Positions 11,212-54,579 of a stretch of 64,000 nucleotides of DNA are shown one piece after another. The stretch is from Caulobacteraceae bacterium (GTDB lineage Bacteria; Pseudomonadota; Alphaproteobacteria; Caulobacterales; Caulobacteraceae). Below the pieces are notes generated by a model that searched no databases, was not told where the DNA came from, and worked only from the letters and a program-made list of their open reading frames with translations. Made by a program: the position numbers and the translations under genes. Each line of letters begins with the position of its first letter. Within the stretch, counting starts at the first letter, position 1. The stretch lies in assembly GCA_947476555.1 (NCBI GenBank), contig CANJRI010000003.1:22536-86535 (forward strand), in the 5' to 3' direction.

Positions 11212-11355
11212 TTAGCGCCGCTCGCGCAGGATCGCGAGGGCCAGACGCGGCCGGATCAGGAACAGCCCGGCCCACACCACGCGGGCGAGGGTCCGGGTCA
11301 GACGACGGCGGGGACGAAACTCGGTCTCGAAGAGGTTGGCGTAGTCGGCGGTCAT
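11212..11355 (-). CDS. Small basic protein of 47 residues, function unknown
   Basis: This short reading frame (MTADYANLFETEFRPRRRL...) sits between the peptidase and the WYL regulator. It ends LAILRERR with one hydrophobic stretch VVWAGLFLI. A strong GGGAGAG ribosome site lies about 8 nt before the ATG. The Arg-rich middle plus a short hydrophobic stretch resembles the small DUF-type membrane-associated proteins of alphaproteobacteria, but I do not recognise a family. The downstream peptidase start is only 10 bp away, so co-transcription is likely. Confidence 0.55.
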   Translation of the reverse strand: MTADYANLFETEFRPRRRLTRTLARVVWAGLFLIRPRLALAILRERR

Positions 11356-11384: not shown

Positions 11385-12383
11385 CTAGGCGCTACCTGCG
11401 ACAGAATCGGACGCAAGGGCCCGGCGGGCGACCTCCAGCTCCGCCGCCATCATGTCCCGCAGCGCCTGCGGCGCCACGATCCGGACCTTGTCGCCCCAGG
11501 TGAACAGGTGCCACGCCAGCTCGCGCATGCCGCTGGCCCGGAAACGGACGAGAACCCCGCCGCCGGCCTGCGCCTCCAGCGTCTGCCCGGTGTGGAAACG
11601 CCAACGCAGGGCGTCCTCAGCCCCTTCCGGGGTCACGGCCAGCACCACGTCATGGGTGTCGTCCTGATAGATGCCGAAGCTCTCGTCGGCATAGGCCTGC
11701 AGGGAGAAATCCTCCGGACGGGCGGCGGCGCGGTCCAGGATCTCCACGTCCAGCATGCGGTCCAGCCGCCAGTTGCGGGGGCCGGCCTTGCCTTCCGCCG
11801 CCACCAGGTAGTTCGACCGCCCGAACAGGATCCCGTAGGGCGTGACCTCGCGGGTCCGGCCGGGATTGGAGCCCCCCTGATAGCGGAAGCGCAGGGCGCG
11901 CATCGCCTTCACCGCTTCGCGGATGCTGGCCAGGATGGCGTCTTCCTCGAACGGCCGGGGGCCGGCCTGAACGGCGATGGCCTCGGCCTGCAACAGGGCC
12001 TCCAGGTCGGGGGCCAGCTTGCGGCGGGCGGCCGCCCGCGTGGCCGACAGCACCTTCTGCTCCAGCGAGCGCAGGGCCTGGGCCCGGCCCTTGGCCCCCT
12101 CCTTGGTCAGCATATCCGCGGCGGCCGACAGGGCCGCCAGCTCCTCGGCGGTGGGCGCCTGGAAGAGGCCATCCAAGCCCGCCGGAATGCGGAACCGGCG
12201 GGTCGGCGGGTCGTCCACCTCCTCCATCTGCGGGAACATCTCACGGACCGCGCCGCGCATGCGCTCGGCCGTCCGCCGGCCAACGCCCATCCGATCGGCC
12301 ATCTCGTCGAGGGTCAGCCCCTCGGCGTTGGAGGCGAGGAGCCGGGCCATCTCCAGCAGTCGGCCGGCCTTTTCGTGGCGCAT
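11385..12383 (-). CDS. WYL-domain transcriptional regulator with N-terminal HTH (YafY type)
   Basis: Of the 332 residues, 1-60 form a DeoR-like winged helix-turn-helix (LTLDEMADRMGVGRRTAERM), followed by a linker and a WYL ligand-binding domain at about 155-240 (core MRALRFRYQG, then RTREVTPYGILFGRSNYLVA and RNWRLDRMLDVEIL) and a C-terminal extension domain. WYL regulators sense nucleic acid or nucleotide-like ligands, often in DNA-damage or phage responses. It is divergent from the 92-residue gene that starts 74 bp away, an arrangement that would allow shared control, but no operator was identified. Confidence 0.85.
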   Translation of the reverse strand: MRHEKAGRLLEMARLLASNAEGLTLDEMADRMGVGRRTAERMRGAVREMFPQMEEVDDPPTRRFRIPAGLDGLFQAPTAEELAALSAAADMLTKEGAKGRAQALRSLEQKVLSATRAAARRKLAPDLEALLQAEAIAVQAGPRPFEEDAILASIREAVKAMRALRFRYQGGSNPGRTREVTPYGILFGRSNYLVAAEGKAGPRNWRLDRMLDVEILDRAAARPEDFSLQAYADESFGIYQDDTHDVVLAVTPEGAEDALRWRFHTGQTLEAQAGGGVLVRFRASGMRELAWHLFTWGDKVRIVAPQALRDMMAAELEVARRALASDSVAGSA

Positions 12384-12457
12384 TTCCAGCTACGTCCGTT
12401 TCTGTCGCAGCGCCCATTGAGAAGGGAGTCACAGCAACCCGCAACGGAGTTCTTCCG

Positions 12458-12736
12458 ATGGCCCAATACCGCAGCTTCCAGCCCCGCCCCGTCCGCCCCT
12501 GGCCGGCCCTGCGTCCCCTGCCCCTCCTGCCCGGCTCGGTGGTCGACGCGGTGCTGCGCTTCCACGATCAGGCCCTCGACCAGGGCGGCGGCCGCACTCT
12601 GCTGCGCCTGTCCGACGCCGCGCTCGAGCGGCCGGAAGTCAAGCAAGCCCTGGGCGATCTGACCCGTAGAGCCGCCGGTGTCTCGATCCTCTGGAACGAG
12701 CGCGAGGGCGAGATCATCCGGGTGCTGGCGGCCTAG
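12458..12736 (+). CDS. Hypothetical protein, 92 residues
   Basis: A small protein with a Pro/Arg-rich N terminus (RPVRPWPALRPLPLLPGS) and a predicted alpha/beta C-terminal part (VVDAVLRFHDQALDQGGGRT, VSILWNEREGEIIRVLAA). No family is recognised. It diverges from the WYL regulator and is followed directly by a short CTTCTCCC-type repeat. Codon usage is like its neighbours, which supports a real gene. Confidence 0.6.
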   Translation: MAQYRSFQPRPVRPWPALRPLPLLPGSVVDAVLRFHDQALDQGGGRTLLRLSDAALERPEVKQALGDLTRRAAGVSILWNEREGEIIRVLAA

Positions 12737-35863: not shown

Positions 35864-35899
35864 TTGACTCCCGCCCCGCTCTATGTTCTCGTTTTGTTC
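35864..35899 (+). promoter_or_regulatory. TTGAC promoter with a perfect LexA (SOS) box
   Basis: A -35 like TTGACT (35864-35869), 17-bp spacer and -10 region TCTCGT (35887-35892) are overlapped by GTTC-TCGTTTT-GTTC (35885-35899), an exact alphaproteobacterial LexA box GTTC-N7-GTTC. The box ends directly at the GTG start of the next gene. The same layout precedes the paralogue near 54543. Confidence 0.75.
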
Positions 35900-36445
35900 G
35901 TGTCCAACGCCGCCCCAGACCGCAACAGCGGAATCCTCCGCGAGCTGGCCGAGCTTGGCCTCTCGGTGGCGCGCGATCTGCAGGCCAGGGTGGCGGCGGC
36001 CGAAGACGACGCCACAGCCAACCAGCTCGCCCGCAGCTTCGAGCGAGTCTCGCGCTCCGTCCGCCATTGCCTGGCCCTGGAGGCCCGCCTGCTGGACGGC
36101 TTCCGCCGGCGCCTCGTCGAGGATCGCGAGCAGGTGGCCGAGGGGCGCCGCGCCGAGATAAGCCAACATCGCCACCGCGTCCGCGAGGCGATGGAGCATT
36201 TCGCCTTTACGGACCCCGAGGTCGGCGACACCGAGGTCGATTACATCCTGGAGCGGGCCGGCGCGTGGCTGGAGCGCGAGGTCGAGGCCCCGGACTTCCT
36301 CGACCTGCCCGTCGAGCAGCACATCGCCCGCCTGCGCCGCGCCCTGGGTCGCGACGGCGCCGCCGAGGAGGAAGAGGCCGAGGGCGACCCCGTTCCCGAA
36401 ACGGGGCCCAGCCTCTCGGACCTCCCCTGGCGAAGCTCGGCCTGA
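35900..36445 (+). CDS. SOS-type gene A: helical protein of unknown function (paralogue of 53986-54543)
   Basis: 181 residues, cytosolic and mostly helical: N-terminal LRELAELGLSVARDLQARVAAAEDD, the block LARSFERVSRSVRHCLAL, then EVGDTEVDYILERAGAWLERE and a C-terminal acidic tail ending SLSDLPWRSSA. About 48 of the first 60 residues are identical to the product of 53986-54543, and the tail SLxDLPWR is shared. I place the start at GTG 35900, the position matching the paralogue's ATG. A LexA box ends at the preceding base, so the mRNA is predicted to be leaderless and LexA-repressed. No domain family is recognised. Confidence 0.8.
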   Translation: MSNAAPDRNSGILRELAELGLSVARDLQARVAAAEDDATANQLARSFERVSRSVRHCLALEARLLDGFRRRLVEDREQVAEGRRAEISQHRHRVREAMEHFAFTDPEVGDTEVDYILERAGAWLEREVEAPDFLDLPVEQHIARLRRALGRDGAAEEEEAEGDPVPETGPSLSDLPWRSSA

Positions 36446-42228: not shown

Positions 42229-42243
42229 GTTCCCCATGCGTTC
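42229..42243 (+). promoter_or_regulatory. LexA (SOS) box upstream of uvrA
   Basis: GTTC-CCCATGC-GTTC is an exact match to GTTC-N7-GTTC. It is 85 bp from the uvrA start and 16 bp from the divergent GNAT start. uvrA is a classical SOS gene, which makes the site credible. Confidence 0.8.
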
Positions 42244-53985: not shown

Positions 53986-54543
53986 TCAGGCCGAGCTTTC
54001 GTGGCGCCAGGGTAGATCGTCGAGGCTGTGCCCCTCGCCAGGCCCGTCCTCGTTGTCGGCCTCGGCCTCCTCATCGTCGGCGGCCCCGGTACGGCCCAGG
54101 GCGACGCGAAGGCGGTCGATATGCTGTTCGGGCGTGAGGTCCAGGAAGGCCGGCCGCTCGGTCTCGCGCTCCAGCCATTCGCCGGCCCGGCGCAGGACGT
54201 AGTCCACCTCGCTGTCGCCGACCTCCGGATCCTCGTCCGCGTACCGCTCTATGGCCTCGCGGACCCGGGCGCGGTGCTGGGCGACCACGGCGCGCCGCGC
54301 CTCGGCGACCTGCTCGCGCGCCTCGACGACGCGGCGGCGCTCGCCGTCCTTCAGGCGGACGATCAGAGCCAGACAGTGACGGACCGAACGGGAGACCCGC
54401 TCGAAGCTGCGGGCGAGGTTGTTCGCGACCGCGTCATCCTCGGCGGCGGCGCTGCGGGCGGCGAGGTCGCGCGCCATCGCCAGGCCGAGCTCGGCCAGCT
54501 CCCGGAGCATTTCGCTGTCACGATCTGCGGCTTCGGCGGACAT
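53986..54543 (-). CDS. SOS-type gene B: helical protein of unknown function (paralogue of 35900-36445)
   Basis: 185 residues: LRELAELGLAMARDLAARSAAAEDD, LARSFERVSRSVRHCLAL, DSEVDYVLRRAGEWLERE, LTPEQHIDRLRVALG and an acidic tail ending SLDDLPWRHESSA. It matches the product of 35900-36445 along its length. ATG 54543 directly follows a perfect LexA box, so the gene is likely LexA-controlled with a leaderless mRNA. Alternative upstream starts would place the box inside the gene. Function unknown. Confidence 0.8.
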   Translation of the reverse strand: MSAEAADRDSEMLRELAELGLAMARDLAARSAAAEDDAVANNLARSFERVSRSVRHCLALIVRLKDGERRRVVEAREQVAEARRAVVAQHRARVREAIERYADEDPEVGDSEVDYVLRRAGEWLERETERPAFLDLTPEQHIDRLRVALGRTGAADDEEAEADNEDGPGEGHSLDDLPWRHESSA

Positions 54544-54579
54544 GAACAAAACAGGAACATGTTCACGCTGCAGGGTCAA
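54544..54579 (-). promoter_or_regulatory. TTGAC promoter with a perfect LexA (SOS) box
   Basis: On the minus strand: TTGACC (54579-54574), 17-bp spacer, TCCTGT (54556-54551), and GTTC-CTGTTTT-GTTC (54558-54544), ending against the ATG at 54543. Same geometry as the promoter at 35864-35899. Confidence 0.75.

Follow-up and report, generated by a model that had tools for sequence, protein, structure and literature searches.

What keeps the same LexA-type promoter in front of two paralogous genes of one bacterial genome, and what do their products do when DNA is damaged? The question comes from a stretch of 64,000 nucleotides of a Phenylobacterium genome (hereafter the window), in which the paralogues, here called gene A and gene B, had been read as a duplicated family of unknown function under selected SOS control. 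The wider evidence supports that reading and enlarges it. The damage control stands, but the picture of two copies under LexA does not: genomes carry up to 26 copies, about half of the family is under a different damage regulator, DriD, and the operators have been exchanged repeatedly.

Paralogues A and B and the LexA operator

Gene B occupies positions 53986 to 54543 of the window on the minus strand; it starts with an ATG at 54543, encodes 185 residues and matches the family profile. Gene A, its paralogue, lies on the plus strand at 35900 to 36445, starts with a GTG at 35900 and encodes 181 residues. The two products are 72% identical over 180 residues (BLASTP, E 6e-79), with the 48 identities among the first 60 residues and the common C-terminus (SLxDLPWR...SSA in both) that had been claimed for them. 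Gene B had been drawn from 53986 to 54579; the stop side is correct, but the upper end falls on the leading T of the -35 hexamer TTGACC, where a TTG chances to be in frame, and not on the start.

The likeness of the two promoters is as predicted, with TTGAC, a 17-bp spacer and GTTC-N7-GTTC ending exactly at the start codon in both. In gene B, the -35 hexamer TTGACC (54574 to 54579, minus strand) is followed after a 17-base spacer of conserved length by TCCTGT (54556-54551), and the operator GTTCCTGTTTTGTTC (54544 to 54558, minus strand) abuts the ATG. In gene A, TTGACT (35864 to 35869, plus strand) also has a 17-base spacer, and the operator GTTCTCGTTTTGTTC (35885 to 35899, plus strand) abuts the GTG. 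In both genes, TTGAC(C/T) begins 21 bases upstream of the operator, equivalent to a 17-base spacer to the presumed -10.

Several lines of evidence bear on the identity of this operator. GTTCN7GTTC is found at five sites in the window against 1.65 expected, a number reached in none of 100 shuffles, and at 68 sites in the whole genome against 23 for a reversed control. Genes with such a site upstream in the genome include lexA, ssb, an imuA-like gene, ku, yifB/comM, radC and uvrA, so GTTCN7GTTC is taken to be the working LexA operator here. The lexA gene of the source genome (NCBIfam TIGR00498, E 8.7e-54) is preceded by GTTCTCTAGGTGTTC, and ssb, the imuA-like gene, radC and ku likewise have a LexA-type operator upstream. 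In genes A and B, GTTCN7GTTC overlaps the promoter, the arrangement of putative members of the LexA/SOS regulon. The Caulobacter crescentus regulon has the same operator, a lexA gene under its own operator, and ssb, imuA and uvrA among its members (PMC4211646, PMC12700426). It differs in that the family is not found in most Caulobacter-type genomes sampled, whereas here the operator abuts a putatively leaderless start in dozens of paralogues, and half of the family has left for DriD. C. crescentus NA1000 itself appears to be without the family.

Two further LexA-type sites lie in the neighborhood. One, GTTCCCCATGCGTTC at 42229-42243 of the window (plus strand), stands between a divergent GNAT gene and uvrA. 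The other, GTTCTTGTTTTGTTC at G000:C3:21696-21710, some 840 bases outside the left end of the window, precedes a 417-aa ORF that resembles a PA0069-type radical SAM protein as judged by eye. Genes A and B had also been said to flank the uvrA region, and this is a coincidence. The gene B site is empty in 29 of 29 relatives examined, none of which has a family gene beside the same neighbor, and any importance of a location beside uvrA was rejected on these grounds.

Distribution and duplication of the family

Searches with a profile built from the first 24 members found the family in 45 of 101 Phenylobacterium genomes, with 1-26 copies each; many of these genomes are MAGs, and their copy numbers are lower bounds wherever contigs break at near-identical copies. 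A full scan of the bacterial family Caulobacteraceae extended this to 64 of 390 genomes and 5 of 22 genera, overturning the idea of a family confined to one genus that had been suggested by searching 200 genomes of the order with one protein, together with order and class samples. Profile searches of the order and class samples outside Caulobacteraceae found no family member, searches of plasmids, phages and viral contigs found no relatives, and a search for related loci with one family alignment gave no match.

Family members have no match over the curated cut-off, or no significant match, in Pfam, NCBIfam, PHROGs and PADLOC, and no match in a search of PDB sequences; the sporadic hits seen in these searches fall far under the cut-offs, are inconsistent among members and were discarded. 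A literature search found no publication on the family. These sequence searches place gene B in an undescribed, lineage-specific, amplified Caulobacteraceae gene family. Its complete absence from about half of the genus and its high copy number in some genomes would be unusual for a core checkpoint.

Homology between duplicated copies extends from about -40 (in some from -70 or further upstream) to the gene end or some 100 bp past it, and no outer flank common to paralogues was found outside the promoter, the ORF and these 100 bp at most. Taken with the empty gene B site in 29 relatives, this bounded homology suggests that copies move or duplicate as promoter-plus-gene units. Many copies have long inverted repeats in their 3' regions. 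These were set aside, since they vary and resemble ordinary intergenic repeats or terminators. In the MAG HRS-HS9-bin-180 of Phenylobacterium deserti, near-identical family genes are cut off after 50-140 bases at the ends of many contigs (loci L193, L195, L217, L225, L237, L238, L245 and L250), and this MAG thus holds recent copies that break its assembly. In 14 pairs of related copies, dN/dS is 0.1-0.5, which indicates purifying selection and hence functional genes; most pairs have a lower value for the core than for the tail.

Two damage operators on a shared core promoter

DriD is a WYL-domain activator that senses ssDNA in the SOS-independent damage response of C. crescentus; its published consensus, ATACGAC-N7-GTCGTAT, overlaps the -35 element, and a G at -14 is conserved in its promoters (PMC12340889). 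The known regulon comprises didA, bapE, recJ, dnaG and CCNA_03891/CCNA_01149, of which bapE encodes a death-promoting endonuclease (PMC12340889). The window holds a driD orthologue at 11385 to 12383 on the minus strand, a 332-aa WYL activator with a WYL hit and a match over its full length to the C. crescentus DriD structures 9pfq and 8tp8 (E 1.6e-140); full-length identity was checked for this copy only. A DriD box, ACGTCCGTTTCTGTCGCA, at 12392 to 12409 on the plus strand, lies upstream of a 92-aa gene divergent from driD (12458-12736, plus strand). By position, the 92-aa gene is the counterpart of C. crescentus CCNA_03891 (PMC12340889), and its relatives occupy the same place in genomes G086 and G022.

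In the four genomes examined, recJ, dnaG and the driD-divergent gene have a tight DriD pattern upstream, with no matches in the reversed control. All three are known DriD targets, so the assignment rests on more than the consensus, and the second operator of the family is, on this comparative evidence, the DriD operator. Genes A and B have no DriD box; the source genome has four sites of the tight pattern, all elsewhere. About half of the relatives appear to belong to the DriD regulon, having a box over the -35, an orthologue of the regulator and the same motif at known targets. Likenesses to the C. crescentus DriD regulon include the consensus, its position over the -35, the G at about -14, the DriD orthologue and the targets recJ and dnaG (PMC12340889). 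The difference lies in Phenylobacterium kunshanense and others, where most strong DriD boxes drive family copies; in P. kunshanense BUT-10, every member found belongs to the DriD class. A regulon so far described at only a few Caulobacter promoters would in these relatives be dominated by a family absent from most Caulobacter genomes sampled.

A 47-aa ORF (MTADYANLFETEFRPRRRLTRTLARVVWAGLFLIRPRLALAILRERR) directly follows driD at 11215-11355 on the minus strand, with a DriD box at 11414-11397, 41 bases ahead of it. Its product is basic and has a single hydrophobic helix, which makes it a candidate for a small membrane protein of the DidA type, and a 52-aa relative stands in the same place in genome G181 (L160), likewise behind a DriD box.

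The two operators are found on the family in nearly equal shares. When members are chosen solely by protein similarity (58 in all), 27 have a LexA operator, 25 a DriD operator, 4 both and 2 only near-matches, counts that depend on the motif definitions used; members recruited by promoter pattern were left out of this count because they had been selected by promoter, and members in the four other genera were left out of the promoter inspection. The chance of finding either motif in a random 205-bp upstream stretch is estimated here at less than 1%. In the LexA class, TTG(A)C is followed after 21 bases by TGTTCN7GTTC and then directly by the start codon. In the DriD class (47 members), a palindrome with the consensus CTACGTCCGCTTCTGACGCA replaces the -35 and is followed by TGTTCCACTCCCGCCC and the ATG; the match to TACGWC-N7-GWCGTA over the -35 ends 22-27 nt before the start codon. 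In both classes a TG lies 14-15 bases ahead of the start codon, where the extended -10 belongs, and the geometry is preserved among proteins that are only about 25-30% identical.

The original prediction had staked selected SOS control on orthologues keeping the LexA box and its spacing. That expectation is borne out: in the LexA class, no base separates the operator from the start codon in 45 of 49 members, and about 43 of the 49 have TTG(A)C 21 bases ahead of the operator. The relatives with no LexA box leave selection unrefuted, because the operator of the other damage regulator is present in its place.

Promoter patterns are also informative when searched without reference to the proteins. 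The LexA pattern TGTTCNNNTTTYGTTCATG (TGTTCN3TTTYGTTCATG) is found in 34 of the 101 genomes of the genus, 32 of which carry the family, and gives no match in the reversed control. Thirty sites were sampled: a family gene begins at 22 of them, and among the rest are a contig end, two IS1595-like insertions right behind the ATG, a frameshifted relic, and YcaQ-like and DnaQ-like genes. The two insertions (L265 in G230 and L282 in G273) have identical terminal sequence, and in one case an IS1595-like transposase ORF starts behind it; this may be a target preference for family promoters of the LexA type. The DriD promoter pattern was run on one genome per species for 84,980 named species. Its Phenylobacterium sites are followed by a family gene or by a contig end within the first codons, with rare exceptions such as L231; in other taxa, sites stand mostly before unrelated genes.

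Exchange of operators is evident on a tree of 90 members. At least about 11 changes of operator class are needed, against 30 with shuffled labels, and at least 6 of them are forced by well-supported branches; the tree was made by a quick method, and the exact counts are approximate. In one pair, L091 (LexA operator, genome G286) and L241 (DriD operator, a Caulobacteraceae MAG), the proteins are 95% identical with a dN/dS of 0.18. Repeated exchange is the expectation if damage inducibility is selected and the choice of regulator is secondary, and these promoter comparisons argue that damage control is selected, whichever regulator supplies it. Such pairs of near-identical proteins under LexA or DriD offer a natural test of why two parallel damage sensors are kept.

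Protein architecture and possible roles

An AF2 model of the protein is all-helical (mean pLDDT 88), with helices at residues 3-33, 37-104 (68 residues), 110-127 and 138-148, after which comes a tail modelled with low confidence. All 89 members compared have L13, R52 and R55, and E105 is present in 93%. The proteins are acidic (median pI 4.7), and nearly all lack a membrane-like stretch, as only 2 of 90 exceed a 19-residue hydropathy of 1.6. The predicted product is a soluble, all-helical hairpin with a disordered tail. The tail is variable, of low complexity and partly derived from intergenic repeats; most full-length members end in S/T then A/G/S, often with a nearby W, and some have a different C-terminal tip. 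Foldseek found no match to the family model under E 1, VIA Z scores of up to 10.4 on the bare hairpin are below the level trusted for long helices, and fold searches with the whole protein and with residues 84-160 alone gave generic helical matches only. Ferritin-like, ESCRT-III and BAR-like folds among these matches were discounted, since long helices commonly adopt such an arrangement.

The explanation favored here, with a probability of roughly 0.6, is an amplified, damage-induced family with two switches and an adaptor or checkpoint effector as its product. The part that concerns regulation is highly likely. It draws on the family, its operators and their geometry, operator exchange and purifying selection, all of them read from sequence comparison. 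Each family copy would be an autonomous unit of about 0.7 kb, made up of a core promoter whose TG precedes the start codon by 14-15 bases, a damage operator and an ORF; the geometry suggests that the mRNA of this ORF has no leader or almost none. In the LexA version, represented by genes A and B, LexA would cover the -10 and start codon of a promoter with a good -35 until RecA-ssDNA triggers LexA self-cleavage. In the DriD version, the DriD box replaces a poor -35, and ssDNA-bound DriD would recruit RNA polymerase. Either way, ssDNA derived from damage would be expected to switch the gene on. With a LexA or DriD switch at nearly every inspected copy, the proteins are very probably damage-response effectors, and two known damage regulators of Caulobacteraceae would be tied to one common output family that no database names.

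The role of the protein as an adaptor or checkpoint effector is a tentative, rather doubtful part of this explanation. Architecture and regulation together suggest a soluble, tethered adaptor or checkpoint effector. The helical hairpin with invariant R52 and R55 might bind a conserved cellular target, while a variable acidic or proline-rich tether links it to a conserved C-terminal tip (W..S-S/T-A/G) that might dock on, or be recognized by, a common partner. SspB and SSB are tethered in a similar manner, with a folded N-terminal part, a long variable tether and a short conserved C-terminal motif. Only the architecture is alike, as no sequence or fold relationship to them was found, and it is from architecture alone that the adaptor role is argued because no relative of known function emerged from the fold or sequence searches. 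The target of the R52/R55 hairpin could reveal a new step of the damage response.

Alternatively, the family may act as division-checkpoint proteins in the manner of SidA (SOS) and DidA (DriD). In Caulobacter, these same two regulators each drive a division inhibitor (PMC4211646), and family members bear the same two operators; SidA and DidA are also lineage-restricted. This is unlikely, given that SidA and DidA are small single-pass membrane proteins, whereas the family consists of soluble, multi-copy helical hairpins of about 200 aa with 2 of 90 members over the hydropathy threshold, and that the 47-aa ORF beside driD, with its own DriD box, is a separate DidA-like candidate. A similarly low likelihood attaches to effectors of damage-induced self-killing or growth arrest, at the population level or against phage, with ssDNA acting through LexA or DriD to release many related toxins at once. 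Variation in copy number, fast evolution of the tail and presence in only about half of the genus resemble conflict genes, and DriD drives bapE in Caulobacter (PMC12340889). However, the family has no toxin, nuclease or membrane-pore domain and no PADLOC match, its copies have differing flanks with no common partner or antitoxin gene, and its core is under purifying selection.

Two further alternatives give the host a smaller part. The promoter and ORF may form a selfish, mobile-like cassette that exploits damage or recombination for its own duplication and does little for the cell, an idea that is consistent with the bounds of paralogue homology, the near-identical copies at many contig ends of one MAG, the gene B site empty in 29 relatives and the intergenic repeat sequence in the tails. 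It is quite improbable, as no transposase was seen, nor any consistent terminal repeats in a non-exhaustive look at the ends, no copy was found on plasmids, phages or viral contigs, dN/dS between copies is well below 1, and repeated operator exchange that always retains damage control argues for a function at the level of the host. The likeness of the two promoters could also be mere inheritance through recent duplication, with no selection for damage control, as genes A and B are close paralogues whose homology extends into the promoter. This has very little probability left, since the geometry is kept at about 25-30% protein identity, copies that have lost LexA control have the other damage operator, and a check for decayed operators found only 2 of 58 members lacking an exact match, both of them near-matches.

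A broader view can also be entertained, although its chances fall somewhat short of even. In many Phenylobacterium species, most of the damage response may consist of this family, with dozens of paralogous effectors per cell and interchangeable LexA and DriD operators, in some copies both, on a shared leaderless core promoter. Two independent ssDNA sensors would then feed into one protein family that acts by a new mechanism.

Some promoters may receive both inputs. The members L057, L085, L086, L088, L094 and L268 form a clade that has a LexA operator and, some 54-72 bases upstream, an inverted DriD-like box, a possible dual-input promoter. In single genomes, DriD boxes are also found upstream of recA (L148, G181) and dnaB (L149, G022). 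Neither gene is among the known Caulobacter DriD targets, and DriD boxes at these positions would couple the two damage responses.
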